Positions 17,611 through 51,841 of a stretch of DNA of 64,000 nucleotides are shown here, one piece after another. Source of the stretch: Xenophilus aerolatus (GTDB taxonomy: Bacteria > Pseudomonadota > Gammaproteobacteria > Burkholderiales > Burkholderiaceae_C). Positions within the stretch are counted from its first letter, which is position 1, and each line of letters starts with the position of its first letter. Where the stretch lies: positions 1,364,001 to 1,428,000 of the forward strand of contig JASCNX010000001.1 of NCBI GenBank assembly GCA_029968055.1, in the 5' to 3' direction. The notes under the pieces were generated by a model, which worked only from the letters and a program-made list of their open reading frames with translations, was not told the DNA's origin and did no database searches. A program made the translations under genes and the position numbers.

Positions 17611-17829
17611 ATGCAAGCCAAACCAACCGCCTTCAAAGTTCTGAGCCATCCGTCGCTGGATCAAGCTGGCGGCGGCACGGCCACTGCCGCGGCCTCCAGC
17701 GTCCACCCTGCCCATCTGGTGCAGAGCAACGAGTTGCTAAAGGGGCAGAAAACCATCGGCATCATGCACAACGGCTCGCTCTACCGCCTGCAGGCGACCA
17801 AACTCGGCAAGCTGATCCTCACCAAGTAA
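17611..17829 (+). CDS. hemP: Hemin uptake protein HemP
   Basis: A 72-residue protein of the HemP/HmuP family, ending GQKTIGIMHNGSLYRLQATK plus LGKLILTK, the conserved C-terminal domain. In Burkholderia and Bradyrhizobium, HmuP is a small regulator needed for expression of the heme receptor operon. The N-terminal 35 residues are variable. It has its own Fur-box promoter. A heme receptor or ABC heme importer would be expected next, but none follows here; the next gene on the other strand is a heme-binding GlcG-like protein. Start is the ATG after CTTCCTCC, in frame with the domain. Confidence 0.92.
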   Translation: MQAKPTAFKVLSHPSLDQAGGGTATAAASSVHPAHLVQSNELLKGQKTIGIMHNGSLYRLQATKLGKLILTK

Positions 17830-34491: not shown

Positions 34492-34626
34492 GGCGGCTAT
34501 TGTGGCTTGGCAGCAAGGGCCCGGAGTTCGAAGCCGCGGGTGCCCGCAGCGCCCGCGGGGTGGGCACATAGAGCTATCAATTGAATAGCAATGGCCACGA
34601 ACCGGCGGCCACGCACAATCGTGGGC

Positions 34627-35742
34627 ATGCCGACGCCCCACACCGACCGCCTGCGATGGGACCTGTTCTGCCGGGTCATCGACAACCACGGCGACCTGGG
34701 CGTGTGCTGGCGCCTGGCCCGGCAGCTCGCCGATGTCGGCGACGCGGTGCGGCTGTGGGTGGACGATGGCCGCGCGCTCGGCTGGATGGCGCCGGCAGGC
34801 CATCCTGGCGTGACCGTGGTCGACTGGCGCGATGCCGAGGCCGTGCGCCGCGCCGTGGCCGACGCACCGCCGCCCGACGTGCTGGTCGAAGCCTTCGGCT
34901 GCGACCCGGCGCCGGAATTGGTCGAACTGTTCGCGCGCCACCGCGGCACGGCGCGCCGCCACGCCTGGATCAACCTCGAGTACCTGTCGGCCGAACCTTA
35001 TGTCGAGCGGCTGCACCGCCTGCCCTCCCCGGTCTTTCGGGGCCCGGGCGAAGGGCTGACCAAGTGGTTCTTCTATCCGGGCTTCACGCCGGCCACCGGA
35101 GGGTTGCTGCGCGAACCCGGCCTGGGAACGCGGCACGAGGCCTTCGACCGGCGCGCCTGGCTTGCCGGTCAGGGGATTGCCTGGCAGGGCGAGCGGCTGG
35201 TCTCCCTGTTCTGCTACGAGCCACCCGCGCTGGCGCCGCTGCTTCGGCAATGGATGGATGGCGCCGAGCCGACACGGCTGCTGGTCACCGCCGGCCGCGC
35301 CGCCACCGCCGTGGCGCAGGCGCTGGAGAAGCTGGCCAGCCCCCCGGAGGGGCGCGGCGCGCTGGCTATTTCATACCTGCCGTATCTGCCGCAGCCCGAT
35401 TTCGACGCGCTCCTCGGGTCGTGCGACCTGAACCTCGTGCGCGGCGAGGACTCGTTCGTGCGCGCTCATTGGGCGGGTGCGTCCTTCGTCTGGCAGATCT
35501 ACCCGCAGGACGACGACGCCCACCACGTCAAGCTCAACGCGTGGCTGGACTGGCTCGATGCGCCGGCCTCGCTGCGCGCCTTCCATCACGCGTGGAACGG
35601 CTTTTCGGACGCGCCGCCGGTGCTGCCCGGTACCGCCGCGCTGGCCGACTGGCAGCAGGCCGCGCAGGCAGGCCGCGCGCGGCTGCTGGCGCAGGACGAC
35701 CTTGCCACCCAGTTGCGCCGCTTCGTCAACCAAAAAAGCTAA
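34627..35742 (+). CDS. earP: EF-P arginine-32 rhamnosyltransferase EarP
   Basis: Transfers rhamnose from dTDP-rhamnose to Arg32 of elongation factor P, needed for rescue of ribosomes stalled at polyprolines. The 371-residue inverting GT-B enzyme has the essential aspartate pair Asp19 and Asp23 in [18 protein letters not shown] and the nucleotide-sugar-binding [16 protein letters not shown]. An ATG 36 bases upstream is possible, but the start at [11 protein letters not shown] fits homologues better. The target gene efp follows on the same strand, and its product has Arg32, so substrate and enzyme match. The polyproline-rich TonB in this window (eleven prolines) is an obvious client. Confidence 0.94.
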
Positions 35743-35890: not shown

Positions 35891-36445
35891 ATGAAAATCG
35901 CTCAAGAAATCCGCGCCGGCAACGTCATCATGCACGGCAAGGACCCGATGGTCGTGCTCAAGACCGAATACAGCCGCGGCGGCCGCAACAGCGCCACCGT
36001 GCGCATGAAGATGAAGAGCCTGATCGCCAACTTCAACACCGAAGTGGTCTTCAAGGCCGACGACAAGATCGACCAGATCGTCCTGGACAAGAAGGAGTGC
36101 ACCTACTCCTACTTCGCCGACCCCATGTACGTCTGCATGGACAGCGAATACAACCAGTACGAAGTCGAAGCCGAGAACATGGGCGACGCCCTGAACTACC
36201 TCGAGGACGGCATGCCGCTCGAAGTCGTGTTCTACGACGGCAAGGCCATCTCGGTCGAAGTGCCCACCAGCGTCGAGCGCGAGATCACCTGGACCGAACC
36301 GGCCGTCAAGGGCGACACCTCGGGCAAGGTGCTCAAGCCCGCCAAGATCGCCACCGGCTTCGAAGTGCCCGTGCCGCTGTTCGTCTCGCAAGGCGACAAG
36401 ATCGAAATCGACACCCGCACGGGCGAATACCGCAAGCGCGTCTGA
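35891..36445 (+). CDS. efp: Elongation factor P (Arg32 type)
   Basis: Promotes peptide-bond formation at consecutive prolines. The 184-residue protein has the three beta-barrel domains of EF-P; the tip residue is Arg32 in [11 protein letters not shown] rather than Lys, the form activated by EarP rhamnosylation. The C-terminal signature is [19 protein letters not shown]. It is separated by 148 bases from earP; a terminator follows. Confidence 0.98.
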
Positions 36446-36471
36446 GCGCTGCCTCTCCCTGCGCATCCGTG

Positions 36472-36495
36472 AAGGCTCCCTTGGGAGCCTTTTTA
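36472..36495 (+). terminator. Terminator after efp
   Basis: AAGGCTCC and GGAGCCTT pair around CTTG, followed by TTTTATTTTT, 27 bases past the stop. Confidence 0.85.
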
Positions 36496-37358: not shown

Positions 37359-38813
37359 TCAGCCTTTCTGCGCACTACCGCTCTCGAAACCCCGCACTGC
37401 GGTCGCGAGGGGCGCCGGGGGCAGCACGGCTTCGACGCCGAGGGCCAACGCCAGCAGCGCCGAATCGCCGTTCTCGGCGCCCGTCAATTCCAGCCCGGCA
37501 GGCAGGCCCTCAGCGGTTAGTCCCATCGGCAGGCTCAGCGCCGGCAGGCCGGCCATACCGGCCGGGCCCGTGTTGCGGATGTAGGCCGAGAAGGCGCTGG
37601 TCACGCGCCCGCAGAGCATGACGTCCACATCCTCGCCGATGCGCGCGGCCGTCAAAGGACTGGTTGGAAACACCAGGGCGGCCAGGCCATGGCGCGCGAA
37701 GCACTCCCGGTACGCCGCCTGCATGCGCGGGCGCAGTGTGTGCAGCGCGTGCGCGTAGGCATCGGGTGTGATCGCGCTTGCACCGAAGAGGCGGTCGAAG
37801 AGCGGGCGCACGTCGGGACTGACCACCGCATCGGCAAGCGCACGCGCGTCGAAGGGGCGGCCGTGTCGTGCGAAGTACGCAGCCAGCGCGGGCAGGATCT
37901 CGAACAGCGAGATCGTCATCGATCCTTCGCGGAACAGCGCGTCGGCTTCCGACAGGTCGCAGGGCACCAGCACGGCGCCCGCATCTGCCAGCCGCTCGAG
38001 CGTTTCGCGTGCCAGCCGCTCGACGGGCGGATCGAGTTCCTCCCAGAAGCAGGCCTGCGGCACGCCCAGCCGCACACCCGCCAGTGGCGTCGCCGCCAGT
38101 TGGGCCGGGCCGCCGGCCACGGCATGGTCGAGCAGCACGCAGTCGTCCACGCATCGCGCCATGACGCCGGCGGTGTCGAAGGTCGGTGAGATCGGCACCA
38201 GGCCATCGTCCGGCCAGCGGTGCACCGTCGGGCGGAATCCCGTGAGGCCGCACAGCGCCGCCGGCACGCGCACCGAGCCGCCCGTGTCGGTGCCGATGGC
38301 CGCCGGCGCGGCGCGCAGCCCGAGGAGCGCGGCATTGCCGCCGCTCGAGCCGCCCGTCACGCGCGTGGGATCGAAGGGATTGCGCGAGGGACCGAAGGCA
38401 TGGTTGTGGCCCGTCACGCCCTGGGACCATTCGTGCATGTTCGATTTGCCCAGCACCAGCGCGCCTGCGTCGAGCAGCCGCTGCGCCACGCCGGCGTGGC
38501 GGCGCGGACGGTGATCCGCCATCCACGGGCTGCCGGCGGTCGTCGGCATGCCGGCCACGTCGATGTTGTCCTTGAAGGCCAGCGGCACGCCCCGGAGCGG
38601 GAGCGCGCCGGGCACGGGGCGCCGGGCATCGACGTCGGCCGCGGCTGCAAGCAACGAGGGCAGGTCCAGATGCAGGAAGGCGCCGTAACCTGCGACGGCG
38701 CCAGCCCGGTCCAGCAGCGCCTGCGCGTAGTCGGTGGCGCGCAGTTCGCCCGATGCGATAAGGCGGGCGGCCTCGCGTACAGAAAGGTCGGTCAGCGCAT
38801 GCATTCGGTCCAT
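37359..38813 (-). CDS. Amidase signature family enzyme
   Basis: A 484-residue amidase with the Ser-cisSer-Lys triad: Lys81 (AFKDNIDVAG), Ser156/157 (TGGSSGGNAALLG) and Ser180 (GTDTGGSVRVPAAL). It hydrolyses a carboxamide or related C-N bond, with no signal peptide, so it is cytoplasmic. Lipid, aryl and peptide amidases all share this signature, and the substrate is not evident. It is divergent from the NMT1-type ABC transporter operon with 138 bases between starts, so it is probably part of the same catabolic system and shares its control region. The start chosen is MDRMHALTD; a second ATG three codons in is also possible. Confidence 0.88.
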   Translation of the reverse strand: MDRMHALTDLSVREAARLIASGELRATDYAQALLDRAGAVAGYGAFLHLDLPSLLAAAADVDARRPVPGALPLRGVPLAFKDNIDVAGMPTTAGSPWMADHRPRRHAGVAQRLLDAGALVLGKSNMHEWSQGVTGHNHAFGPSRNPFDPTRVTGGSSGGNAALLGLRAAPAAIGTDTGGSVRVPAALCGLTGFRPTVHRWPDDGLVPISPTFDTAGVMARCVDDCVLLDHAVAGGPAQLAATPLAGVRLGVPQACFWEELDPPVERLARETLERLADAGAVLVPCDLSEADALFREGSMTISLFEILPALAAYFARHGRPFDARALADAVVSPDVRPLFDRLFGASAITPDAYAHALHTLRPRMQAAYRECFARHGLAALVFPTSPLTAARIGEDVDVMLCGRVTSAFSAYIRNTGPAGMAGLPALSLPMGLTAEGLPAGLELTGAENGDSALLALALGVEAVLPPAPLATAVRGFESGSAQKG

Positions 38814-38951
38814 GGAGAGCTTGAATTGGGGCGAAAGCTGCACTCTGGTGCATGTTTCGGGCCAATTGCAGGCTGCAATCAGGCGAACAAGGCTTGATTC
38901 TGTTGGCATGGATACTGCATATGCTATTTTTTGTATTCAAAGGCCCTTCCA

Positions 38952-39959
38952 ATGTCCTTCAAGTCCTTGCGCATCCTGGCTGCCGTCGCGACGTCGATGG
39001 CTCTTCTGGCGGGCACGCCCGCGTCGGCCGCCGAAAAGGTCTCGCTGCGCCTCAAATGGCTGGCGCAGGCACAGTTCGCCGGCTTCTACGTGGCCAAGGC
39101 CAAGGGCTTCTACGACCAGGCGGGGCTCGACCTGACGATCAATCCGGGCGGCCCCAACCTGAACGTCGAGACGCTGGTCGCCGCCGGCAACGACACCTTC
39201 GGCCTGGCCGGCGGCACCGAGACCGTGCTGCTCGCTCGCGAGAAGGGCCTGCCGCTGGTGTGCATCGGCGTGACCGTGCAGAACACGCCCTTCACGTACG
39301 TGGCCTACAAGGACTCCGGCATCACCAAGGTGAAGGACTTCGCCGGCAAGAAGGTCGCCACCTGGTTCACCGGCACGCAGTACACGCTGTACTCGATGCT
39401 CGCTTCCGCCGGCGTGAAGCAGAGCGACCTGACCATCGTTCCGCAGTCGGGCTCGATGGCGCCCTTCGTCGAGAAGCAGTTCGACGTGGCCGCCGCCACC
39501 TACTACAACGAGCTCAACACACTGAAGGAACAGGGCCTGGGCGACAAGCTCACGCTCATCAAGCCCGACGACTACGGCGTCGTCGTGCAGCAGGACACGG
39601 TGCTCGTGTCCGAGAAGTACCGCAACGAGAAGCCGCAGCAGGTGCAGGCCTTCCTGACCGCCACCATCAAGGGCTGGAAGTACGCGCTGCAGAACAAGAA
39701 GGAAGCCATCGACATCGTCATGGCCGCCGCCCCGACCCTGAACCGCGCGCACCAGGAAGCCATGCTCGACGAGTTCGAGAAGCTCGTGAAGGCCGGCAAG
39801 GGCAGCACCGACGGCATCCTGGCCATCGACCTGCCGACGGTCGAGAAGATGCAGACGCAGCTCGTGGGCTACAAGGCGCTGAAGGCACCGGCCGACCTGT
39901 CGAAGGCCTACGACCCGAGCTTCTGGGCCCAGGTGCCCGTGGCCGACAAGAAGTTCTGA
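38952..39959 (+). CDS. ABC transporter substrate-binding protein (NMT1/THI5-like)
   Basis: A 335-residue periplasmic protein with a signal peptide (cleavage after about residue 27, GTPASAAEK) and the NMT1/SsuA fold: SLRLKWLAQAQFAGFYVAKA, GGTETVLLAREKGLPLV, and the later FTGTQYTLYSMLASAGV. Family members bind thiamine pyrimidine precursors, taurine, sulfonates, nitrate or riboflavin; ligand not deducible. The ATG at MSFKSLRIL is chosen with an AAAGG site before it. First gene of a long co-oriented unit running through a bicupin gene. Confidence 0.9.
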   Translation: MSFKSLRILAAVATSMALLAGTPASAAEKVSLRLKWLAQAQFAGFYVAKAKGFYDQAGLDLTINPGGPNLNVETLVAAGNDTFGLAGGTETVLLAREKGLPLVCIGVTVQNTPFTYVAYKDSGITKVKDFAGKKVATWFTGTQYTLYSMLASAGVKQSDLTIVPQSGSMAPFVEKQFDVAAATYYNELNTLKEQGLGDKLTLIKPDDYGVVVQQDTVLVSEKYRNEKPQQVQAFLTATIKGWKYALQNKKEAIDIVMAAAPTLNRAHQEAMLDEFEKLVKAGKGSTDGILAIDLPTVEKMQTQLVGYKALKAPADLSKAYDPSFWAQVPVADKKF

Positions 39960-39989
39960 GCCGGCGCGTCGCCTCCACGACCCGAAGCC

Positions 39990-40841
39990 ATGAAATTCAT
40001 GCCCCATGAAGTGATGCCGCCCGCCGCGAGCGATGCAGCGCCGCCCATGCTCGAGCTGGTCAATGTCTGGAAGCGCTTCGGCGAAGCGCAGGCGCAGACC
40101 GTGGCGGTGTCGAACGTCAACCTGCGGATCGCGAAGGGCGAGTTCGTCACGCTCGTGGGGCCGTCGGGCTGCGGCAAGTCGACGCTCTTCAACATGATCG
40201 CGGGCCTGCTGCCGCCCGACGACGACGGCTCGCTGCTTTTCGGCGGCGCGCCGCAGCGCGATGGCCAGTTGCTCGGCAAGGTGTCGTTCATGCCGCAGCG
40301 CGACCTGCTGTTTCCCTGGCGCACCGTGCTGGACAACGCCATCCTCGCGCTCGAGGTCGAAGGCCTGCCGCGCAGGCAGGCGCGCGAGCGTGCCCGCGCC
40401 ATGCTGCCCGAGTTCGGCCTGGCGGGCTTTGCCGACCACTACCCGCACCAGCTGTCGGGCGGCATGCGCCAGCGTGTTGCGCTGATGCGCACCTTCCTGT
40501 TCGAGCGCGACCTGATGCTGCTCGACGAACCCTTCGGCGCGCTGGACGCCCTGACGCGCAGCCGCATGCAGCACTGGCTGCTCGATATCTGGGCGCGCCA
40601 CTGGCGCACGGTGCTCTTCATCACCCACGACATCGACGAGGCCATCGTGCTGGGCGACCGCGTGCTGGTGATGAGCGCGCGCCCCGGCACGGTGAAGAGC
40701 GAAACCGTCATCGACCTGCCGCGCCCGCGCGACCCCTCGGTGGTGCTCACGCCGGAGTTCATCCGCATCAAGCAGCGCCTGCTCGCCGAGATCGAGGAGG
40801 AAAGCCGCAAGACCTTCGCGCAGGAGGGTTCCGTTTCGTGA
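39990..40841 (+). CDS. ABC transporter ATP-binding protein (SsuB/TauB-like)
   Basis: A 283-residue ATPase: Walker A GPSGCGKST, Q-loop region FMPQRDLLFPWRTV, signature LSGGMRQRVALMR, Walker B LMLLDEPFGALD and switch His in FITHDIDEAIVLGDRV. Forms the uptake complex with the adjacent substrate-binding protein and two permeases. It overlaps the first permease by four bases (GTGA). Confidence 0.93.
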   Translation: MKFMPHEVMPPAASDAAPPMLELVNVWKRFGEAQAQTVAVSNVNLRIAKGEFVTLVGPSGCGKSTLFNMIAGLLPPDDDGSLLFGGAPQRDGQLLGKVSFMPQRDLLFPWRTVLDNAILALEVEGLPRRQARERARAMLPEFGLAGFADHYPHQLSGGMRQRVALMRTFLFERDLMLLDEPFGALDALTRSRMQHWLLDIWARHWRTVLFITHDIDEAIVLGDRVLVMSARPGTVKSETVIDLPRPRDPSVVLTPEFIRIKQRLLAEIEEESRKTFAQEGSVS

Positions 40842-41596
40842 ACGCCTTCCTGCAGCGCGCCCTGCGCTCGCCCGCCCTGGCCTTCCTCGGGCTCGCGCTG
40901 GCCTGGGAACTGTGCGTGCACGCATTCGCCCCCTCGCCGCGCCTTCTGCCTGCGCTCAGCGCCATCGCGCAGGACGCGTGGTCGGTGTGGCCCCAGCTGC
41001 TGCGCGGCTTCGGCCGCACGCTGCTGGAGACCGTGCTCGGCTTCGCGGCGGGCGCGCTCTTCGGCTTCTTCTGCGGCACGGTGTTCACCTATTCGCGCTG
41101 GATGGAGCGCTCCGTCTTCCCGCTCTTCGTGGTCTCGCAGACCGTGCCGGTCGTGGCCTTCGGCGCGCTCATCGTGATCTGGTTCGGCAACTCACTGCTG
41201 GCCAAGGTGATGACCGCCTTCTTCCTGACCTTCTTCCCGGTGACGGTGAACACGCTGCGCGGGCTCAAGTCCTGCGACCCGCAGCGCGTCGCGCTCATGC
41301 GCAGCTTCGGTGCCGACCGCTTCGTCATGTTCTTCAAGCTGGCCGTGCCTTCGGCCCTGCCGCAGGTGATGGTCGGCCTGCGCGTGGCCATCGGCCTGAG
41401 CCTGATCGGTTCGGTGGTGGGCGAGTGGTTCGGCGAGACGGTCGGCCTGGGCGTCATGCTCATGGAGGCGATGAACGCCGACCTGGTCCTGCGCCTGTGG
41501 GTGGTGATGTTCGCCTGCGGGCTGATGGGCGCCATGCTCTACGGGCTGCTCACATTCGTCGAAAGGAGGCTCGTATGGTGGCGCAGCGAAAGCTGA
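40838..41596 (+). CDS. ABC transporter permease (SsuC/TauC-like), first copy
   Basis: A 252-residue permease with about six membrane segments and the EAA-type loop TLRGLKSCDPQRVALMRSFG that contacts the ATPase. GTG start overlapping the ATPase stop. It forms a heterodimer with the following permease gene, which overlaps it by 22 bases. Confidence 0.9.
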   Translation: MNAFLQRALRSPALAFLGLALAWELCVHAFAPSPRLLPALSAIAQDAWSVWPQLLRGFGRTLLETVLGFAAGALFGFFCGTVFTYSRWMERSVFPLFVVSQTVPVVAFGALIVIWFGNSLLAKVMTAFFLTFFPVTVNTLRGLKSCDPQRVALMRSFGADRFVMFFKLAVPSALPQVMVGLRVAIGLSLIGSVVGEWFGETVGLGVMLMEAMNADLVLRLWVVMFACGLMGAMLYGLLTFVERRLVWWRSES

Positions 41597-42333
41597 TGGC
41601 ATCGCCCGTGGTGCCGGTGGTGCTGAGCATCGCCGTGCTGCTGATGGTGTGGGAGGGCGCGATCCTGCTCTTCGGCATCCCGCCCTTCGTGCTGCCCAGC
41701 CTGGATGCGATCGTGCGGCATGCATTCAGCGACACCGGCCGGCTCCTGGCCGCGCTGCTGGCCACGCTCGGCGAAGCGCTCGGCGGCTATGCGCTGGGCA
41801 GCCTGCTCGGCCTGCTGCTGGCCGTGGTGCTGCTGCTCGCGCCGCCCCTGGAGCGCATCGTCATGCCGCTGGCAGTCGCGGTGAACGCGGTGCCGACGGT
41901 CGCCTATGCGCCGCTCTTCCTGATCTGGTTCGGGCTCGGCGCGGCCTCGAAGGTGGCCCTGGTGGCGTTGGCGGTCGGCTTCACCATGCTGGTGAATGCG
42001 CTGCACGGCCTCAAGCAGGCCGACGCCGCTGCGGTCAACCTGATGCGCAGCTTCGGGGCCGGGCCGCTGAAGATCGTCTGGCGCCTGCGCCTGCCGGTGG
42101 CGATGCCCTCCGTGGTCACCGCGCTGCGTGTCTCGGTGCCGCGCAGCATGATCGTGGCGATCGTCGGCGAGATGCTGGGCGCCTATGCCGGGCTCGGCCG
42201 GATGATCTATGAATCGACGCAGCAGGTGGACCTGCTGAGCGTGTGGGCGGCGGTGCTGGTGGCCTCGCTGGCGAGCATGGTCTTCTACGGCGTGCTGGTG
42301 TGGATCGACCAGAAACTGGTCTGGTGGCGATGA
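41575..42333 (+). CDS. ABC transporter permease (SsuC/TauC-like), second copy
   Basis: A 252-residue permease with about six membrane segments and the EAA loop ALHGLKQADAAAVNLMRSFG. It is preceded by AAAGGAGG and overlaps the first permease by 22 bases and the aldolase start by four (ATGATGA). Having two different permeases suggests a heterodimeric channel. Confidence 0.9.
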   Translation: MVAQRKLMASPVVPVVLSIAVLLMVWEGAILLFGIPPFVLPSLDAIVRHAFSDTGRLLAALLATLGEALGGYALGSLLGLLLAVVLLLAPPLERIVMPLAVAVNAVPTVAYAPLFLIWFGLGAASKVALVALAVGFTMLVNALHGLKQADAAAVNLMRSFGAGPLKIVWRLRLPVAMPSVVTALRVSVPRSMIVAIVGEMLGAYAGLGRMIYESTQQVDLLSVWAAVLVASLASMVFYGVLVWIDQKLVWWR

Positions 42334-43103
42334 TGACAAAGACGAACCCTGCGGCCTACCCCGAGACCGAAGCCGAGCTGCGGGTGCAGCTCGCCGCCTG
42401 CTACCGGCTGGTGGCGCACTTCGGCATGGACGACCTGATCTACAACCACATCTCCGCGCGCGTGCCGGGGCCGCAGCATCACTTCCTCATCAACCCCTAC
42501 GGGCTGCTGTTCTCGGAAGTCACGGCCTCCTCGCTGGTGAAGATCGACCTGGACGGCCACAAAGTGGACGACACCGACGCCGAGGTCAACCGCGCCGGCT
42601 TCGTGATCCACAGCGCGATCCATGCGGGCCGTCCCGATGCGCTGTGCGTGCTGCATACCCACTCCGAGGCCGGCACCGCGATCGCCGCCATGCCGCACGG
42701 CCTCGCGCCGCTGAGCCAGTTCGCGATGCGCTACCAGGGCCACACCGCCTTCCACGACTACGAAGGCGTGGCGCTGGAGACCGGCGAGCGCGAGCGGCTG
42801 GTGCGCGACCTGGGGCCCCACCACACGCTGGTGCTGCGCAACCACGGCATCCTGACCGTGGGACGCACCATCCCCGAGGCCTTCATCCTCATGTACTACT
42901 TCGAGAAGGCGGCCAAGGTGCAGCTGCTCGCGCAAGCCGGCCTCGCCGCCGGCGAGCAGCTGGTGTACCCGCAGCCCGAAGCGAGCGCGCTGGCCGCGCG
43001 CCAGTTCACCGAATTTGCCGGCGACATCCTGCCGCCCGGCACGCGCGAATGGCCCGCGTTCCTGCGCATGCTGGAGCGCACGCAGCCGGACTACCGGCTC
43101 TGA
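42330..43103 (+). CDS. Class II aldolase/adducin family protein
   Basis: A 257-residue zinc-type aldolase-fold protein. Metal ligands are His109 and His111 (VLHTHSEAGTA) and a C-terminal His in LRNHGILTVGRTIPEAF, with HISARVPGP near the N-terminus. Family reactions are retro-aldol cleavage, epimerisation or decarboxylation of hydroxy-carbonyl compounds (fuculose/ribulose phosphates, 3-oxo-tetronates and similar). Which applies is not clear. It is translationally coupled to the transporter permease, so it likely acts on the imported compound or an early product. Confidence 0.87.
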   Translation: MMTKTNPAAYPETEAELRVQLAACYRLVAHFGMDDLIYNHISARVPGPQHHFLINPYGLLFSEVTASSLVKIDLDGHKVDDTDAEVNRAGFVIHSAIHAGRPDALCVLHTHSEAGTAIAAMPHGLAPLSQFAMRYQGHTAFHDYEGVALETGERERLVRDLGPHHTLVLRNHGILTVGRTIPEAFILMYYFEKAAKVQLLAQAGLAAGEQLVYPQPEASALAARQFTEFAGDILPPGTREWPAFLRMLERTQPDYRL

Positions 43104-43150
43104 CTGCCGTTCATCCCTTCCTTCCCCTCCCCTTCCCACCTCCAGAGACC

Positions 43151-43990
43151 ATGCAATTCGAGAACCTCACGCCCTTCCTCGGTACGGAAGTCAAGGGCAT
43201 CGACCTGCGCGAACCGGTGAGCGACGCCGAGTTCGCCGTGCTGCGCGAAACACTCAACCAGCGCTCGGTGCTGCTGTTTCGCGGCCAGCGCATCAACGAG
43301 GCCCAGCATGTGGCCTTCTCGCGCCGCTTCGGGCCGCTGCTGGGCCACGTGCTCACGCAGTTCCTGAAGAAGGAGCATCCCGAGGTGTACGTGCTGTCGA
43401 ACGTGTCGGAGAACGGCAAACCCATCGGCAACCACAAGGAAGGCTGGAATTGGCATTCCGACCTCTCGTACAAGGCCGAGCCCTCGATGGGCGCGCTGCT
43501 GTATGCGCTCGAGGTGCCGCCGGTGGAGGGCGACACCTTCTTCGCCTCGATGCATGCCGCCTACGACGCGCTCGACGACGACATGAAGGCGCGCATCCGC
43601 CATCTCACCGCCACCCACAGCTACGCCAACTACTACGGCAAGGCCTTCGCCGACCGCAACCCGCTCACGCCCGAGCAGCTGGCCGCCACGCCCGACGTGG
43701 TGCACCCGCTGGTGCGCACCCATCCCGAGACCGGCCGCCTCTCGCTGTACGTGGGCGAAGACGTGGTCAAGCAGATCGACGGGCTGCCCGCCGACGAGAG
43801 CGCCGAACTGCTGGCCGAGCTGAACGCGCACGCCATCTCGCCGGAGTTCAGCTACCGCCACAAGTGGCTGGCCGGCGACCTGCTGGTGTGGGACAACCGC
43901 TGCACCATGCATTGCGCCACGCCTTACGACGACAACGTGTACCGCCGCGTGATGCACCGCACCACCGTCGCCGGAGACCGCCCGTTCTGA
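43151..43990 (+). CDS. TauD/TfdA-family Fe(II)/2-oxoglutarate dioxygenase
   Basis: A 279-residue dioxygenase with the facial triad His102-x-Asp104 (WNWHSDLSYKAEP) and His254 (NRCTMHCATPYDD), and the 2-oxoglutarate-binding Arg266/Arg270 (RRVMHRTTVAGD). TauD relatives hydroxylate carbon next to a leaving group, such as sulfite from taurine or a phenol from 2,4-D, or cleave ethers. Genes for taurine sulfur release (taurine dehydrogenase, Xsc) are absent, so taurine is not the default guess. Lies between the aldolase and the GntR regulator. Confidence 0.92.
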   Translation: MQFENLTPFLGTEVKGIDLREPVSDAEFAVLRETLNQRSVLLFRGQRINEAQHVAFSRRFGPLLGHVLTQFLKKEHPEVYVLSNVSENGKPIGNHKEGWNWHSDLSYKAEPSMGALLYALEVPPVEGDTFFASMHAAYDALDDDMKARIRHLTATHSYANYYGKAFADRNPLTPEQLAATPDVVHPLVRTHPETGRLSLYVGEDVVKQIDGLPADESAELLAELNAHAISPEFSYRHKWLAGDLLVWDNRCTMHCATPYDDNVYRRVMHRTTVAGDRPF

Positions 43991-44080
43991 CACCGGACCT
44001 CACGCGCCAGCCGTCCGCCGAACCGGCACAAGCCCGCACGAGCACCGCCAAAGACAGACACAACAAAGGAAGGCAAGACC

Positions 44081-44818
44081 ATGGAACCCCATGACCCGGA
44101 GATGACCGCGGACGCCTCGCTGCCGCGCGCCCGCGAGCGCCAGCGCGGCAGGGGCGCGACCCTGTCCGACGAACTGAAGGACACGCTGGAGGACCTGATC
44201 GTCAGCGGCGTCATGAAGCCCGGCGCGCGGCTCGACGAAGCCGAGCTGGCCGAGCGCTTCAAGGTCTCGCGCACACCGGTGCGCGAGGCGCTCAAGGCGC
44301 TGGCGGCCACCGGGCTCGTCGACCTGCGAAGCCGCCAGGGCGGCGTGTGCGTGGCGCGCATCTCGCTGCCGATGCTCATCGAGATGTTCCAGATGATGGC
44401 GGTGATGGAAGGCCTGTGCGCGAAGTTCGCGGCCCGCCGAGCCAGCGAGGCGCAGAAGCAGCGCATGGGCGACCTGCACGACGAGCTGACCCGCATCCTC
44501 GCCTCGGGCGACCACTCGCGCTTCTACGACGTGAACCAGGACTTCCACGACGCTCTCTACGAAGCGTCGAACACGCACTACCTGGCCGAGCAGACCCGCG
44601 CGCTGCGCAAGCGGGTGCGCGTGTACCGCCGCTACGTGACCTTCCAGCCCGGACGCATGAGCGCCACCATCGGCGAGCACGGCGCGATCCTCGACGCGAT
44701 CCGCCGCAACGATCCGGCGGCGGCGTTCAACGCCGCCATCGACCACGTGAGCCTGCTGGAGGACGACATCGTCGACCTCATCGCCGCGCTGTCCGAGCAG
44801 GACGCGGGCGTCGCGTGA
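44081..44818 (+). CDS. GntR-family (FadR/FCD) transcriptional regulator
   Basis: A 245-residue regulator: winged helix-turn-helix (about 25-95, IVSGVMKPGARLDEAELAER, FKVSRTPVREALKALAATGL) and an all-helical FCD ligand-binding domain (RFYDVNQDFHDALYEASN, GEHGAILDAIRRNDPAAAF), typical of sensors of carboxylic acids with a metal. It is encoded within the catabolic unit, about 90 bases after the dioxygenase, so it probably regulates the island, including the divergent amidase/ABC promoter region. Confidence 0.92.
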   Translation: MEPHDPEMTADASLPRARERQRGRGATLSDELKDTLEDLIVSGVMKPGARLDEAELAERFKVSRTPVREALKALAATGLVDLRSRQGGVCVARISLPMLIEMFQMMAVMEGLCAKFAARRASEAQKQRMGDLHDELTRILASGDHSRFYDVNQDFHDALYEASNTHYLAEQTRALRKRVRVYRRYVTFQPGRMSATIGEHGAILDAIRRNDPAAAFNAAIDHVSLLEDDIVDLIAALSEQDAGVA

Positions 44819-44870
44819 GCGCTCCTCTTCCACACATTCCGATCGCCTCCCCGCACCCCAGGACAATTTC

Positions 44871-45704
44871 ATGAAACTCGAACTCGACGGCAAGACCGTA
44901 CTCATCACCGGCGCCTCCAAGGGCATCGGGCTTGCAGCCGCCCATTCGTTCGCGGCCGAAGGCTGCCACCTGCAACTGGCCGCGCGCGATGGCGTCGCGC
45001 TGGCGGCCGCCAAGGCAGACATCGAGAAGCTCCACCCGGTCAAGGTGGGCATCCACCCGATGGACCTGGCCGCGCCCGGTGCCATGGCGCAGCTGGCCGA
45101 GGCTACCGGCCATGTCGACATCCTGGTGAACAACGCGGGCGACATTCCCTCGGGCCCCATCGAGTCGCTGGACTTCGCCGTGGTGCGCCGCGGCTTCCAG
45201 CTCAAGGTGCTGGGCTACATGGAACTCAGCCAGATCTACTACGCCCGCATGAAGGCCGCGGGCGGCGGCGTGATCGTGAACGACATCGGCAACTCCGGCG
45301 AGAACTGGGACGCCAACTACATCGCCGGTTCCACCGGCAACGCGGCCGTGATGGCCTTCACGCGCGCACTCGGCGGCGTGAGCCTGGACGACGGCATCCG
45401 CGTGGTGGGCGTGAACCCCGGGCCGGTGGCCACCGACCGCATGGTCAAGCTCATGAAGCGCCGAGCGCTCGACACCCACGGCGACGAAGGCCGCTGGGAA
45501 GAGCTGTTCGACAACTACCCCGGCGGCCGCCCGGCCACGCCGGAAGAAGTGGCCGAGCTGATGGTGTTCCTGGCCTCGCCGCGCGCGGGCTACATCACCG
45601 GCACGGTCGTGACCATCGACGGCGGCATCGCCGCGCGCGGCTCGATCATCAAGACCAGCAAGAAGGCGCTGGCGGCCGAACAGGCGCAGAGGCTCGCGGC
45701 ATGA
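44871..45704 (+). CDS. Short-chain dehydrogenase/reductase with atypical active site
   Basis: A 277-residue SDR. The cofactor motif TGASKGIG (residues 13-20) and NNAG (87-90) are intact. In the catalytic region Tyr150 of NYIAGSTGN is present, but the residue four positions on, normally Lys, is Ser154, and the expected Ser about 12 before Tyr is not Ser (VNDIGNSG). This departs from the Ser-Tyr-Lys triad, so the protein may catalyse another reaction, use other residues, or act as a non-redox lyase. The last residues overlap the aminotransferase gene (ATGA). It is in the catabolic island. Confidence 0.85.
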   Translation: MKLELDGKTVLITGASKGIGLAAAHSFAAEGCHLQLAARDGVALAAAKADIEKLHPVKVGIHPMDLAAPGAMAQLAEATGHVDILVNNAGDIPSGPIESLDFAVVRRGFQLKVLGYMELSQIYYARMKAAGGGVIVNDIGNSGENWDANYIAGSTGNAAVMAFTRALGGVSLDDGIRVVGVNPGPVATDRMVKLMKRRALDTHGDEGRWEELFDNYPGGRPATPEEVAELMVFLASPRAGYITGTVVTIDGGIAARGSIIKTSKKALAAEQAQRLAA

Positions 45705-46876
45705 ATGCGGCCCTGAATCCCGCGGCCGCGGTGCCGGCCGTGACCAGCGATGCCGAAACGCGCAACCGCTACTTCGATCGGCTCTTCTCTAACCCCGACC
45801 TGATGTGGCTGGGCCAGAACACCAACCACTTTCCGCTGCACCCGGCCGTGCGCAAGGCGCTGCACGATGCGATCGACGACGAGAGCTTCCACGCCTACGC
45901 GCCACCGTTGGGCATGGAAGCGCTGCGCTCGGCCATCGTGGCGGACCTCGGCGTGCCCGACCAGTCGGCCGTGGTGACCGACGGCGCGGTGTCGGCGCTC
46001 GCACTGGCCTGCCGTGCCTTCTGCATGCCGGGCAAGGGCTTCGTCACCACCGACCCGGGCTGGAAGTGGCCGCTGCAGTTCGCGGCCAAGGCGGGCTGCG
46101 CCATCACCGAGATTCCGATCTACGGGCCCGAGCACGGCTTCAAGCTGTCGGCCGATGCGCTGGCCGCGTCGACCGACGCCGGCACCGCCGTCATCTACCT
46201 CGTCGATCCCAACAACCCGCTGGGCACCACCTACACCGAGGACGAGATCCGCGCCTTCGCCGAGCGGGCCCGCGAGATCGGCGCCATCCTCATCCACGAC
46301 TGCACCTACCGCGACTTCGCCGACAGCCATACGCTGGCATCGCGCTTCTACCCGGAAGGCACCGTGACCATCGTGAGCTTCTCGAAGTGGCTCGGGCTCG
46401 CGGGCCTGCGGCTCGGCGCGCTCGTCGCCTCGCCGGAGCTGCTCGCGCGCATCCTGCCGCATTCGCAGGCGCCGCTGGGCGCCAGCGTGCTGGCACAGCG
46501 CGCGGCCATCGCGGGCCTGGCGGTGAAGGCCGAATGGATGACCGAGGTGATCGCGCAACAGCGCGAGAACCAGCGGATGATCGTCGACGCCTTCGGCAAG
46601 CTCCCGGGCTTCGAGGTGCCGGTGTTTCCGTCGCAGGCCAACTTCATCGTGGTGGAGTGCAGCAAGGCGGGCGTGACGCCCGAGGCGCTGGTCACCGCGC
46701 TGGGCGAGCACGACATCATGGTGCGGCAGGGCACCTACCACACGCCGCGCTTCGGCCACCGCTTCGTGAAGATCTCCACCACCGTGCCCCGGGCGTGGGC
46801 GCAGGCGCTGTGCGACGTGCTGCCGCAGGCGGTCGAGCGCGCGCGCGGCCTGCCGGCGACGGCGGCGCTGTTCTGA
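45701..46876 (+). CDS. PLP-dependent aminotransferase (class I/II fold)
   Basis: A 391-residue fold-type I aminotransferase. PLP-binding Lys229 is in SFSKWLGLAGLRLG; earlier motifs are the VTDGAVSALALACRAF cofactor region and VDPNNPLGTTYTEDEIRAF; the C-terminal Arg is in TPRFGHRFVKIS. It moves an amino group between an amino acid and a keto acid, or may be a lyase of the same fold. ATGA overlap with the upstream SDR gene shows coupling. Its presence suggests that an amine or amino acid is on the pathway. Confidence 0.9.
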   Translation: MNAALNPAAAVPAVTSDAETRNRYFDRLFSNPDLMWLGQNTNHFPLHPAVRKALHDAIDDESFHAYAPPLGMEALRSAIVADLGVPDQSAVVTDGAVSALALACRAFCMPGKGFVTTDPGWKWPLQFAAKAGCAITEIPIYGPEHGFKLSADALAASTDAGTAVIYLVDPNNPLGTTYTEDEIRAFAERAREIGAILIHDCTYRDFADSHTLASRFYPEGTVTIVSFSKWLGLAGLRLGALVASPELLARILPHSQAPLGASVLAQRAAIAGLAVKAEWMTEVIAQQRENQRMIVDAFGKLPGFEVPVFPSQANFIVVECSKAGVTPEALVTALGEHDIMVRQGTYHTPRFGHRFVKISTTVPRAWAQALCDVLPQAVERARGLPATAALF

Positions 46877-46890
46877 GAAAGGGCCCGACG

Positions 46891-47772
46891 ATGGGTTTCG
46901 CCACCACCCCCGACGGCATCCGCCTCTACTACGAGACCGCCGGCAGCGGCACGCCGATCGTGTTCGTGCACGAGTTCGGCGGCGACCACCGCAGCTGGGA
47001 GCCGCAGATGCGCTACTTCGCGCGGCGCCACCGGTGCGTGACCTTCGGCGCGCGCGGCTATCCGCCGTCGGACGTGCCGGCCGACGTGGAGCGCTATTCG
47101 CAGGCCATCGCGGCCGACGACATCGCGGCCGTGATGGACGCGCTCGGGCTGCAGCGCGCCCACATCGTCGGCCTGTCGATGGGCGGCTTCGCGACGCTGC
47201 ACTTCGGCCTGCGGCATGCGCACCGTGCCGCCTCGCTCGTCATCGCCGGCGCCGGCTACGGCGCCGAGAAGGAGCACGAGGCCTACTTCCGCGGCGTCTC
47301 GCTCGAGGTCGCCCGGCAGTTCGAGGCGCAGGGCGCCGAGAAATTCGCCCGCACCTACTCGCTCGGAGCAAGCCGCGTGCAGTTCCAGAACAAGGACCCG
47401 CGCGGCTGGCAGGAGTTCGCGACCTGGCTCGGCCAGCACGACGCCGTGGGCGCGGCCAACACCATGCGCGGCGTGCAGGCGTGCCGCCCGTCGATCTACG
47501 ACCTGGAAGGCGAACTGCGCGCGATGGCCGTGCCTTCGCTGGTGGTGGTCGGCGACGAGGACGACCACTGCCTGCAGCCCGGCATCTTCCTCAAGAAGAC
47601 GCTGCCGGCCTGCGGCCTGGCGGTGATGCCCAAGACCGGCCACACGCTCAACCTGGAAGAGCCTGCGGCCTTCAATGCCCTGCTCGCGGAGTTCTTCGCA
47701 CAGGTCGAGGCCGGCCAGTGGAAGCCGCGCGACCCGCGTGCGCTGCCCAGCCAGATCATGAAGACGGACTGA
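46891..47772 (+). CDS. Alpha/beta hydrolase (enol-lactonase-like)
   Basis: A 293-residue alpha/beta hydrolase with nucleophile Ser in VGLSMGGFATL, acid Asp in VVVGDEDDHCL and His in KTGHTLNLEEPAAF, and oxyanion segment VHEFGGDHRSW. The fold class includes 3-oxoadipate enol-lactonases and ring-fission hydrolases. Being between an aminotransferase and an M20 amidohydrolase, with a ring-cleavage-like bicupin after that, a C-C or ester/lactone hydrolase role downstream of ring opening is plausible but not shown. The stop overlaps the next start. Confidence 0.87.
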   Translation: MGFATTPDGIRLYYETAGSGTPIVFVHEFGGDHRSWEPQMRYFARRHRCVTFGARGYPPSDVPADVERYSQAIAADDIAAVMDALGLQRAHIVGLSMGGFATLHFGLRHAHRAASLVIAGAGYGAEKEHEAYFRGVSLEVARQFEAQGAEKFARTYSLGASRVQFQNKDPRGWQEFATWLGQHDAVGAANTMRGVQACRPSIYDLEGELRAMAVPSLVVVGDEDDHCLQPGIFLKKTLPACGLAVMPKTGHTLNLEEPAAFNALLAEFFAQVEAGQWKPRDPRALPSQIMKTD

Positions 47773-49073
47773 TGGCCAACGCCACCGCCACCGGCACCGC
47801 CGCGACGGCCCCGCCGGCCCAGGGCGCCTGGCGCATCGACGCCGACCGGCTCTGGCGCCGGCTCATGGCGCTGGCCTGCATCGGCGCCACGCCCGGCGGC
47901 GGCGTGGACCGGCAGGCGCTGAGCCGGGAGGAGATCGATGCCTGGCGCACGATGATCGGCTGGGCCGAATCGTCGGGCCTGGAGGCCTCGACCGACCCGG
48001 CGGGCAACCTCTTCATCGCACTGCCGGGGGCCGATCGCGATGCGCCGCCCGTGCTCGCGGGCAGCCATCTCGACAGCCAGCCCGGTGGCGGCCGCTTCGA
48101 CGGCGTGTACGGCGTGGTCGCGGCGCTGGAGGTGCTGACCACCCTGGCCGGGCGCGGCGTGCGTCCGCCGGTGGACATCGTCTGCGTGGCGTGGATGAAC
48201 GAGGAGGGGTCGCGCTTCGCCCCCGGGATGATGGGCTCCGAAGCCTTCGCCGGCGTGCGCAGCCTGGAGGCCGTTCGGGCGGTGCGCGATGCCGGCGGCG
48301 TGGCCGTCGGCGATGCCCTCGACGCGCTGCATGCGGCGTTTCCGGCGCTGCGCCGCAAGCCGCTGGGCTTTGCGGTGGCGGCGTATCTCGAAGCGCACAT
48401 CGAGCAGGGGCCGGTGCTGGAGGCGCAGCAGTGCACGATCGGCGTGGTCACCGGCATCCAGGGCAAGAAGACCTTCGACATCGTGATCGAGGGCCAGCGC
48501 GGCCATGCCGGCACGCTGGCGATGGCCGACAGGCAGGACGCGCTGGAAGCCTTCACGCGCATCGCCTCGGCGCTCTATGCCGAGGTCGGGCGGCACGACG
48601 AAGCCGTGAAGTTCACCATCGGCCGCCTGCAGGTCGAGCCGAACGCGCCCTCGGTCGTGCCCGAGCGCGTCACCCTGCGCATCGACCTGCGGCATCCCGA
48701 CAACGCGGTGCTCGGCCACCTGGGGCAGCGCATCGCCGAGCTGTGTGCAGCCCTGGCCGCGCCATGCAGCGTGCGCGTGACGGCGCTGGTCGATGCGCCC
48801 TCCAACGGCTTCGATCCTGCACTGCAGCAGTCGATCGCGCGGGCCGCGGCGCGCATCGGCGTTCCCCACATGCCGATCCTCTCGGCGGCGGGCCACGACG
48901 CGCGCCACATGGCGCCCCTGTGCCCCAGCGCGATGATCTTCATCCCATGCCGCGGTGGCGTGAGCCACGCGGAACACGAGTGGGCCGAGCCGGCGCACGT
49001 CGCGGCCGGTGCGGACGTGCTGCTGGACGTCCTGCTTCCCTGGGCGGGACTCGCGAAGGACGGCACACCGTGA
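47772..49073 (+). CDS. M20-family Zn amidohydrolase (AllC/N-carbamoylase type)
   Basis: A 433-residue zinc-dependent amidase/carbamoylase. Metal and active-site motifs: VLAGSHLDSQPGGGRFDGVYG, CVAWMNEEGSRFAPGM and HIEQGPVLEA, all typical of allantoate amidohydrolase, beta-ureidopropionase and L-N-carbamoylase. The C-terminal dimerisation region has AGHDARHMA. It likely hydrolyses a carbamoyl, ureido or amidine/amide bond to release ammonia. ATG overlaps the previous stop; its stop overlaps the following GTG start (GTGA). Substrate unknown. Confidence 0.9.
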   Translation: MANATATGTAATAPPAQGAWRIDADRLWRRLMALACIGATPGGGVDRQALSREEIDAWRTMIGWAESSGLEASTDPAGNLFIALPGADRDAPPVLAGSHLDSQPGGGRFDGVYGVVAALEVLTTLAGRGVRPPVDIVCVAWMNEEGSRFAPGMMGSEAFAGVRSLEAVRAVRDAGGVAVGDALDALHAAFPALRRKPLGFAVAAYLEAHIEQGPVLEAQQCTIGVVTGIQGKKTFDIVIEGQRGHAGTLAMADRQDALEAFTRIASALYAEVGRHDEAVKFTIGRLQVEPNAPSVVPERVTLRIDLRHPDNAVLGHLGQRIAELCAALAAPCSVRVTALVDAPSNGFDPALQQSIARAAARIGVPHMPILSAAGHDARHMAPLCPSAMIFIPCRGGVSHAEHEWAEPAHVAAGADVLLDVLLPWAGLAKDGTP

Positions 49074-49999
49074 GCCCCACCGTCGTCGACATGGCCGACC
49101 TGCCGATGCAGCACCCGGCCGCGCCCGCCGGTGCGGCACAGGCCAGGGCCCGCTTCTTCAACTCCGGCAATGCCTTCAACGTGAAGCTGCCCGAGGTGCC
49201 CGCGCGGCTTTTCGAGCCGCCGCCGCTGGAGCGCTTCGGTGTGTTCGACTGCGACCAGTCCCGTGCCCTCGGTGGCGGCGTCGCGGCCACCACCCCGCTG
49301 ATGCTCGCGCGCTATGTGCGCATCGCCGCACGCGACGCACTGCCGCCGCTCGACGTGCATGCGACCGGTTCGGTCTGGTATGTGATTGCCGGCACCGGGC
49401 GTGTCACGGGCGCGGCGATCGACGTGGCCTTCGCTGCGGGTGACGTCTTCCTGCTGCCGGGCGCACCGGCCTACCGGCTCGAGGCCGGCGAACAAGGCGC
49501 CCTGCTCTGGAGCGTCGACAACGCGCCGCAACTGGCCTTCGAGCGCGCGCAGCCGGCCCCCCTGGCCGAAGCGCTGATCGATGCGGTGCACTACCCGGCT
49601 GCGGAGATCGAGCGCCAGCTCGCGCTGATCCTGTCCACCGGCACGCACGACGAGACCTCGGGCCGCGCGCTGATCTTCTCGTCCGACCGGCAGGCCGCGG
49701 CGCGCAACCTCACGCCCACGCTGACGCTGAGCCTCAACACGCTCGAGCCGCACACCCACCAGCGCATGCATCGCCACAACTCGGCCGCCATCACGCTGGT
49801 GGTGAGGGGCGAAGGCTGCCATTCGGTGGTCGGCGGCGAGCACTGCCCCTGGACACCCTGGGCCACCCTGGTCACGCCGCCGGGCGCGCCGCATTCGCAT
49901 CACAACGAAGGCACGCACGGCGCCCGCTTCCTGATCGTGCAGGACGGTGGGCTGCACTACCACGCGCGGACCATGGGCTTCGAGTTCCTGGAAGCCTGA
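49070..49999 (+). CDS. Bicupin protein, gentisate-dioxygenase-like
   Basis: A 309-residue two-cupin protein. The N-terminal cupin (about residues 75-160, DVHATGSVWYVIAGTGR) has a single His. The C-terminal cupin (220-295) has the metal-binding cluster HQRMHRHNSAAITLV and PPGAPHSHHNEG, with a late GGLHYHARTMGF. The domain arrangement resembles gentisate and salicylate 1,2-dioxygenases, which cleave hydroxylated rings with Fe(II), although total sequence identity cannot be judged by eye. GTG start coupled to the amidohydrolase with an AAGGA site. It is the last gene of the island. Confidence 0.8.
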   Translation: MSPTVVDMADLPMQHPAAPAGAAQARARFFNSGNAFNVKLPEVPARLFEPPPLERFGVFDCDQSRALGGGVAATTPLMLARYVRIAARDALPPLDVHATGSVWYVIAGTGRVTGAAIDVAFAAGDVFLLPGAPAYRLEAGEQGALLWSVDNAPQLAFERAQPAPLAEALIDAVHYPAAEIERQLALILSTGTHDETSGRALIFSSDRQAAARNLTPTLTLSLNTLEPHTHQRMHRHNSAAITLVVRGEGCHSVVGGEHCPWTPWATLVTPPGAPHSHHNEGTHGARFLIVQDGGLHYHARTMGFEFLEA

Positions 50000-50097
50000 G
50001 ACTGGCGCTGCCGAAGGCGGATCGCTGCCCGCCTGGCCCGATGCTTGCTGGGCGCACAATCACCGGCACCCAACGCATCCTCGACAGCCGCCCAAGA

Positions 50098-51061: not shown

Positions 51062-51841
51062 TCAAGGGGTGCGCTCGGCGCCCGATCCGTCGGGCACCGT
51101 GAAATCCGGCGCCTCGTCCGCGGGCCGGTGCGATGCGCCCAGCCCCATGCCCATGCCGGCGCCCCCGGCCAGCGCCCCACCGCCACCGCCTCCACCGCCT
51201 CCACCCGCGCCGCCGCCGCGGCCGCCCGCTGCACCTGCGCCCTGCCCGGCGGCACCCCCGCGCCCGCCGGCGCCGCCTGCGGCACCCGGGCGCGCCGGCC
51301 CCTGCGGCGGCACCGCCAGGTCGGCCGGGACGGGTGCCAGGTCCAGCGCCTCGCGGATGAAGGCGCGCAGCGACGCGACCAGCGGGCCCACCAGGACGAC
51401 ACGGCCCGCCACCATGTCCTGTGCAGCCTGCACCGCCAGGCGCACCTGCTCCTCGGTGCCGAGCAGAACCACGTCGGACAGCGCGGCCTCCACGGCATCG
51501 CGGATGCGACGGCGGCGCTCGGCGACGCTCGCCGGCAGTTCGCGCTCGACCGGCAGCACGGCCTCCACGTCGCCGGCGGCGGCGGCCGGCGCGCGCAAGC
51601 GACGGCTGCCGTGCGACGGGTCGACCTCCAGGTTGCCGGTGAACGAGCCGCCCAGGGTCTTGTAGGCGGCGATCAGCGTGCGCAGGCGCTCGTTGATCTG
51701 CCGGTTCTCGCGCTCGCGCCGCCGCTGCAGCGTCTGCATGAAGACCAGGCGGATGCCGACCGCCACCAGCGACACGAGCACCAAGCCGAACAAGGTGGTC
51801 GCGGCCGCGGACCAGGAGGAGAAGTCGAAGGCGTTGCGCAT
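51062..51841 (-). CDS. Conserved hypothetical membrane protein with Gly-rich C-terminus
   Basis: No characterised family recognised. The 259-residue protein has one N-terminal membrane helix (about 13-34, TLFGLVLVSLVAVGIRLVFM), then a basic helical stretch RRRERENRQINERLRTLIAA and a domain of about 150 residues (KTLGGSFTGNLEVDPSHG, RRRRIRDAVEAALSDVVLLG, DMVAGRVVLVGPLVASLRAF). The tail from about residue 190 is low complexity: Gly/Ala-rich with ten consecutive Gly, then Gly-Met repeats. The middle domain looks structured; the tail is probably disordered. Location: inner membrane with the bulk in the cytoplasm is likely from the positive residues after the helix. Confidence 0.7.
   Translation of the reverse strand: MRNAFDFSSWSAAATTLFGLVLVSLVAVGIRLVFMQTLQRRRERENRQINERLRTLIAAYKTLGGSFTGNLEVDPSHGSRRLRAPAAAAGDVEAVLPVERELPASVAERRRRIRDAVEAALSDVVLLGTEEQVRLAVQAAQDMVAGRVVLVGPLVASLRAFIREALDLAPVPADLAVPPQGPARPGAAGGAGGRGGAAGQGAGAAGGRGGGAGGGGGGGGGGALAGGAGMGMGLGASHRPADEAPDFTVPDGSGAERTP

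Follow-up and report, generated by a model that had tools for sequence, protein, structure and literature searches.

Several bacterial routes for pyrimidine breakdown are named in PMC10741476 (reductive, oxidative, Rut and URC), and the Pyd enzymes are described in PMC7332683. Here we analyze a 64,000-nucleotide stretch of Xenophilus aerolatus (the window; assembly GCA_029968055.1, contig JASCNX010000001.1, positions 1,364,001 to 1,428,000), in which a block at 37359-49999 carries genes that partly recall these routes. Translation and family scans revealed 12 co-oriented genes on the plus strand and a divergent amidase gene, 13 in all. Gene content, order and coordinates agreed with those of an earlier sequence-only reading, whose count of twelve co-oriented genes stood; the GntR regulator gene, which it had counted in addition, is one of the twelve. 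Scans with hidden Markov models covered 11 of the encoded proteins, while the ABC transporter ATPase and the first permease were named from sequence motifs and annotated homologues. For comparison, we assembled a set of 91 loci from 80 of 173 confirmed loci of a hydrolase-alignment scan, L041-L045, L047 and five plasmid regions; L042 and L064 are the same locus in this set.

The block resembles each of the described systems in part. A carbamoylase-family M20 enzyme and an aminotransferase are present, as expected for the PydC and PydD roles, but a short-chain dehydrogenase/reductase (SDR) and an alpha/beta-hydrolase are found instead of a PydA-type flavoprotein and a PydB amidohydrolase, and an oxygenase, an aldolase-family protein and a bicupin are added. 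No PydA dihydropyrimidine dehydrogenase was seen among the 11 scanned island proteins or a scanned selection of the neighbour proteins of relatives, and no PydB-type amidohydrolase among the former. Likeness to the Rut system lies in the alpha/beta-hydrolase and, in relatives, in an LLM-fold flavin mononucleotide (FMN) monooxygenase and a RutF-like flavin reductase, matched in 15 of the 91 loci (one scanned: 245.9 bits, cut-off 254.75). However, the relatives' monooxygenase is of the NtaA/DmoA subfamily (one protein scanned: 546.6 bits, cut-off 279.7) and not RutA, no RutB was seen, and the true RutA of this organism is encoded outside the operon, at G000:C4. ThiXYZ/YlmB serves the uptake and salvage of thiamine precursors; it shares an NMT1-type binding protein and an M20 hydrolase with the island, which differs from it by its oxygenases and GntR gene and in which no thiamine pyrophosphate (TPP) riboswitch was found. 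Finally, the M20 enzyme and the bicupin call to mind the allantoate amidohydrolase and ureidoglycine aminohydrolase of ureide (allantoin) degradation. The M20 enzyme nevertheless scores below the allantoate cut-offs (418.9 of 452; 378.4 of 399; TIGR03176 AllC 239.1 of 597.75), the best models for the bicupin are gentisate-type and far below cut-off, and the island has no allantoinase. In line with the earlier claim that no known pathway has this exact set, a literature search among open-licence papers listed none that describes it. Mimosine degradation, prompted by a Leucaena Rhizobium, was set aside, as no matching gene set showed among the papers listed for it.

The block represents a conserved, mobile catabolic unit with exchangeable parts; its status as a conserved unit is well supported by recurrence in other genomes. 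Its genes are found again, as two modules, in Alpha-, Beta- and Gammaproteobacteria. Module B, composed of the SDR, aminotransferase, alpha/beta-hydrolase and M20 genes, is complete in 68 of the 91 loci. Module A, composed of the NMT1 transporter, the aldolase-family protein, an oxygenase and often the bicupin, is variable, with the binding protein in 49 loci, the aldolase-family protein in 45, the bicupin in 31 and TauD in 12. Module B was also found without module A, beside transporters of the NMT1, Tct, Liv, MFS or BMP types. Some recurrent clusters (17, 21), which overlap core genes, were treated as false frames. Among 299 sampled genomes of the window's family, nine, including its own, had a near-full-length bicupin match (E of 4.4e-51 or better), and 151 more had only partial, weaker matches. 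Essentially the whole block is kept in L040 and L041, and most of it, without TauD, in L042 and L045; L043 holds module A only, and L044, L046 and L047 hold two or three block genes. The gene order of the block is found in L041 and in Variovorax L057 and is reshuffled in L042 and L045. Such variation between lineages favours functional coupling over one frozen string of genes.

The aminotransferase family, NF004870, is rare: it was detected in 4 of 398 Pseudomonadota genomes (own included), in none of 14 controls, and in 11 of 394 genomes sampled as the family of G700. Amidase-family genes lie near the clusters of the TauD-type loci L056, L057, L114 and L128 and also of L049, L090 and L111; within the 91 loci, only L056 and L057 have an amidase of more than 45% identity. 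The SDR and hydrolase genes occur without aminotransferase or M20 in eight loci (L061, L076, L078, L085, L089, L103, L125 and L129), some of which sit on short contigs, and the hydrolase is the sole module B gene in ten. In L103, L125 and L129 the SDR-hydrolase pair is followed by a fumarylacetoacetate-hydrolase/HpaG-like protein, a member of the protein cluster of L129 10883-11722, and in L103 and L129 an Amidohydro_2 protein is also present. Homologues of the SDR or the hydrolase alone in other plasmid contexts pointed to no consistent substrate.

The block is a discrete insertion with a precise boundary, ending at the bicupin. Its neighbours are a gene of the enoyl-CoA-hydratase family, which ends at 37304, and one of the LOG family, which starts at 50041; both were named from a reading of their sequences. 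In 7 of 15 genomes of the genus, the own genome being among the 15, these flanking genes are separated by 28-110 nt; in two, the own genome (G000) and G255, they are 12.7-12.8 kb apart with the block between them; in the other six, the best match to the first flanking gene is on a different contig. The aminotransferase is likewise present in 2 of the 15. The amidase gene is therefore part of what was inserted. No integrase was seen adjoining the block. An argument for horizontal transfer from identity was rejected: the island proteins are 82-98% identical to those of Variovorax SG517, but the LOG protein reaches 85%, so that identity alone proves nothing. The grouping of these genes exceeds chance, as shown by their joint recurrence in other genomes and the discrete insertion. 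The earlier proposal of a single catabolic unit is borne out by conservation with reshuffling, by this boundary and by a recurrent upstream element described below; as far as tested, the block genes are linked in other genomes rather than scattered.

The oxygenase position of module A is occupied by alternative enzymes. Among the 45 loci with the aldolase-family gene, 32 have the FMN monooxygenase, 11 have TauD, none has both, and two (L044 and L060) have neither. In a quick tree of the aldolase-family proteins (43 rows), the exchange amounts to 4 changes, against a mean of 10.7 after shuffling. L088, L106 and L108 carry a DAO/SoxA-type oxidase pair instead. In L088 (779-8010) and L108 (1378-8815), this pair, a PCC-domain protein, an ECF-type transporter and a nucleoside hydrolase precede module B.

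We analyzed the island proteins for family membership and conserved active-site residues. The amidase (37359..38909, minus strand, alternative internal start 38813; PF01425, 319.8 bits) is predicted to be of the indoleacetamide-hydrolase type, as its score of 543.1 bits passes the cut-off of 532 of model NF005688; the amidase of L128 remains below it (453.3 bits). All following genes are on the plus strand. The periplasmic binding protein of the NMT1/THI5 family (38952..39959; PF09084, 188.7 bits) is the best-scoring of 28 NMT1 domain matches in its genome, and its nearest solved structures are 4nmy, then 3ix1 (ThiY) and THI5/THI13. At about 109690-112766 of contig C8, some 1.1 kb separates another NMT1 binding protein of this genome from a match to the D-hydantoinase family, which scores 302.4 bits and stays below the cut-off. 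The transporter is completed by an ATPase (39990..40841; motifs, an annotated homologue and relatives), a first permease (40838..41596; motifs and relatives) and a second permease (41575..42333; PF00528, 89.7 bits).

Next in line is a class II aldolase/adducin-family protein, PRK07044 (42330..43103; NF005451, 349.2 bits, cut-off 207). Its three metal-binding His residues are kept in 44 of 44 aligned sequences. In the motif VNxAxFVIH, Ala (44/44) and then Gly/Ala (44/44) stand at what we presume to be the position of the catalytic Glu of fuculose aldolase (FucA), and the best solved match is 3ocr, an uncharacterised class II aldolase/adducin-domain protein, followed by adducins, 4xxf, NovR and TqaM. 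The earlier label of aldolase therefore holds for the family only, and catalytic aldolase function is not assured. The Fe(II)/2-oxoglutarate dioxygenase of the TauD/TfdA superfamily (43151..43990; PF02668, 251.8 bits) retains HxD and the distal His in 12 of 12 sequences. Its nearest solved structures are of the RdpA type ((R)-phenoxypropionate dioxygenase), then TauD and TfdA; taurine or sulfonate use was rejected, as the protein scores 215.9 bits, under the taurine dioxygenase cut-off of 313 (NF007104). It is followed by the GntR/FCD transcriptional regulator (44081..44818; PF07729 and PF00392).

Module B begins with the SDR, of subfamily PRK06125 (44871..45704; NF004779, 391.3 bits, cut-off 261). 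The catalytic motif of classical SDRs is YxxxK. Here the Tyr is present in 77 of 77 sequences and Ser142 in 64, but the position four residues after the Tyr holds Ser (59), Thr (15) or Ala (3) and never Lys, so that the classical motif is lacking. The pyridoxal-phosphate-dependent aminotransferase PRK06225 (45701..46876; NF004870, 477.6 bits, cut-off 351) has Lys357 in 68 of 68 sequences at the presumed position of the Arg usually carried by class I aminotransferases; this placement is pattern-based, since the solved-structure alignments end before Lys357. Residues Ser96, Asp222/224/225 and His251 of the alpha/beta-hydrolase (46891..47772; PF00561, 74.5 bits) are kept in 87 of 87 sequences. 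The M20 amidohydrolase (47772..49073; TIGR01879, 370.4 bits, cut-off 204), of the hydantoinase/carbamoylase family, retains the metal motifs (His99, Asp110, Glu144/145, His209 and His399) in 67 of 67.

The bicupin (49070..49999; PF07883, 52.7 bits at residues 224-290) has His234, 236, 275 and 277 in 30 of 30 sequences, and the metal-type His motif is found only in its C-terminal cupin. It had been read as resembling ring-cleavage enzymes, but its matches to gentisate-type models are weak (47.6 and 52 bits, where the cut-offs are 442.1 and 650) and strongest in the C-terminal cupin. Gentisate ring cleavage was rejected, since the 47.6 bits fall short of the 442.1 that TIGR02272 asks of a gentisate 1,2-dioxygenase. 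Because the active-site motifs of three of the enzymes depart from the canonical ones, a name such as "aldolase" denotes the family and not a reaction. Of the 11 junctions between the co-oriented genes, six are overlaps (1, 4, 4, 4, 4 and 22 bases, the last hinging on the chosen start codon) and five are gaps (14, 30, 47, 52 and 90 bases), so that "mostly four-base to zero gaps", as first described, was about half right. The overlap sequences are GTGA at 40838 and 49070 and ATGA at 42330 and 45701, as reported before, whereas the fifth reported site, at 47772, is a one-base TGATG overlap.

Neighbouring genes in other genomes suggest a substrate class. Eight of the 91 loci (seven at the tblastn threshold) carry a nucleoside hydrolase gene, which follows the bicupin in six of them and precedes the SDR in L088 and the aminotransferase in L108. 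Such a gene is also present in 5 of 11 additional regions. In seven searched genomes of such loci, of 4.6-6.5 Mb, the family has 2 to 7 genes, which by arithmetic gives a chance of about 0.7-2.4% of meeting one in a random 21-kb window; the loci are not all independent. In Rhizobium CB3060 and CB3171, plasmid-borne copies of module B have a BMP-type ABC transporter in line on one side and, on the other, a nucleoside phosphorylase and then deoC; genes for deoA and phosphopentomutase are close by. The phosphorylase of CB3171 belongs to the uridine-phosphorylase type, with 218.7 bits against a cut-off of 280.3. In L060, a divergent PyrD (dihydroorotate dehydrogenase) paralogue (267 bits) starts 3 nt after the M20 gene, a second PyrD (388 bits) being encoded in the genome, and in L089 a phosphoribosyltransferase gene follows the hydrolase gene. 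The closeness of the binding protein to 4nmy, ThiY and THI5 points the same way.

We propose, with a probability of about 0.43, that the island was inserted as a whole and forms a single accessory catabolic operon, which imports and degrades a nucleobase-like N-heterocycle. The NMT1/ThiY-type ABC transporter would import the compound, and the GntR regulator, probably a repressor, would govern the operon. The oxygenase (TauD here, more often the NtaA/DmoA-type FMN monooxygenase elsewhere), the aldolase-family protein and the bicupin may then attack the compound, and module B may dismantle the ring-opened product, with M20 taking a carbamoyl or acyl group off an amino acid, the aminotransferase taking the amine, and the SDR and hydrolase cleaving the carbon skeleton. 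The imported N-containing cyclic compound suggested by the sequence-only reading is thus plausible, and its narrowing to a nucleobase-like one comes from neighbours in other genomes and from no gene of the window. Plain uracil or thymine is unlikely, because the genome already encodes RutA (695 bits) and a D-hydantoinase-family protein (535 bits; matches on contigs C5 and C8); hence a nucleobase-like compound outside those routes is favoured.

Several observations weigh against this proposal. The nucleoside genes are absent from the window and from most of the 91 loci, and no PF01156 nucleoside hydrolase was found in the own genome at E 1e-15, which lowers our confidence. L060 is a metagenome bin. 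Beyond the RutA and D-hydantoinase-family genes of this organism, 20 of 20 module genomes have a D-hydantoinase-family match (19 over cut-off), against 7 of 14 controls (2 over), and 6 of the 20 have RutA. The occurrence of the SDR and hydrolase, or the hydrolase alone, apart from the rest of module B indicates that neither is tied to nitrogen release. A plasmid of Variovorax SRS16 and the locus L047 have bicupin, TauD and aldolase-family genes close together, at 38-48% identity, without the nitrogen module. Lastly, strongly supported branches of the aldolase-family tree force only one oxygenase change.

Part of this evidence suits another substrate class, an N-acylated or N-alkylated compound other than a nucleobase, such as an aryl amide or an opine-like or phenoxy-type acid. 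The amidase or M20 would free an amine, TauD or the monooxygenase would cleave a C-N or C-O bond, and the aminotransferase and SDR would finish; the nucleoside genes of some relatives would have been acquired by chance or to serve a different substrate. Enzymes of the TauD/TfdA, NtaA/DmoA and DAO/SoxA types can cleave C-N, C-O or C-S bonds, and the RdpA-type structural match, the amidase score over the indoleacetamide hydrolase cut-off and the scarcity of nucleoside genes in the loci and the own genome fit this explanation. We consider it a serious if doubtful alternative, which leaves the in-line nucleoside hydrolases, the nucleoside phosphorylase/deoC operon, the second PyrD and the ThiY-like binding protein unexplained. 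Alternatively, module B might be an analogue of the reductive pyrimidine pathway. The pyrimidine would be reduced by the SDR and the resulting dihydropyrimidine opened by the alpha/beta-hydrolase, with M20 in the role of ureidopropionase and the aminotransferase in that of beta-alanine aminotransferase. Its place within a pyrimidine-nucleoside operon, near genes for an NAD(P) transhydrogenase and an aldehyde dehydrogenase, the carbamoylase family of M20 and the invariant aminotransferase Lys argue for such a role. It is improbable nonetheless, given the lack of the catalytic Lys from every aligned SDR and the D-hydantoinase-family and RutA genes that the module genomes already have, and it leaves the module A enzymes unexplained. 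Salvage of a thiamine precursor in the manner of ThiXYZ/YlmB, for which the ThiY-like binding protein and M20 speak, is largely refuted already and has very little probability left: searches of the island and of the clusters of 21 relatives detected no TPP riboswitch there, and the oxygenases point to degradation. The single TPP riboswitch match, in L128 (Erwinia sp. JUb26; 17687-17807, plus strand), is about 5.6 kb past M20 in what appears to be a separate locus.

Upstream of the transporter genes, a putative sigma70-like promoter, TTGGCA-16-TATTTT with TG, lies at 38903-38930 (plus strand; one consensus match found, shuffle mean 0.5) and is directly followed by an operator-like element, TTGTATTCAA (38931-38940, plus strand; consensus match). 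This pattern occurs at a single place in the window, and 6 of 100 shuffles had as many matches. The same element is found in L056, and TTGTATTCAC in L057. Among 27 intergenic regions of loci with divergent transporter and GntR genes, GTATAC is present in 17, and in 16 of these it lies 30-31 nt upstream of where GntR is estimated to start. TTATACAA is present in 15, against no occurrence in 548 kb elsewhere in the same loci. These words were chosen post hoc, and many loci are close relatives (Bradyrhizobium), so that fewer cases are independent. The element TTGTATTCAA of the window resembles these elements of the relatives. A riboswitch search of the island found none, and terminator-like matches were not above chance (6 found, 5.0 expected).

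Elsewhere in the window, 34591-35742 (plus strand) encodes a protein resembling EarP (EF-P rhamnosyltransferase), and 35891-36445 (plus strand) is an EF-P-like open reading frame, followed by a terminator-like hairpin at 36471-36492. The C-terminal part of the frame at 51062-51841 (minus strand) is glycine-rich and of low complexity.

Taken together, the analysis unites thirteen generically annotated genes in one testable catabolic unit, for which the aminotransferase PRK06225, bearing only a generic name in NCBIfam, is the specific marker. It offers a candidate function for the generically named families PRK06225, PRK07044, a PRK06125 subgroup and the island bicupin. A bolder possibility, for which the odds are slim, is that this operon family encodes yet another way in which bacteria process the pyrimidine ring or modified nucleobases, such as those that tRNA releases. 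An SDR lacking the Lys and an alpha/beta-hydrolase would then stand in for the known enzymes of ring reduction and ring opening, and TauD, the FMN monooxygenase or a DAO-type amine oxidase would interchangeably strip a side group from the base. If the substrate is indeed nucleobase-like, the operon would extend the range of pyrimidine or modified-base routes known in bacteria, and mechanistically different oxygenases would fill the same slot.

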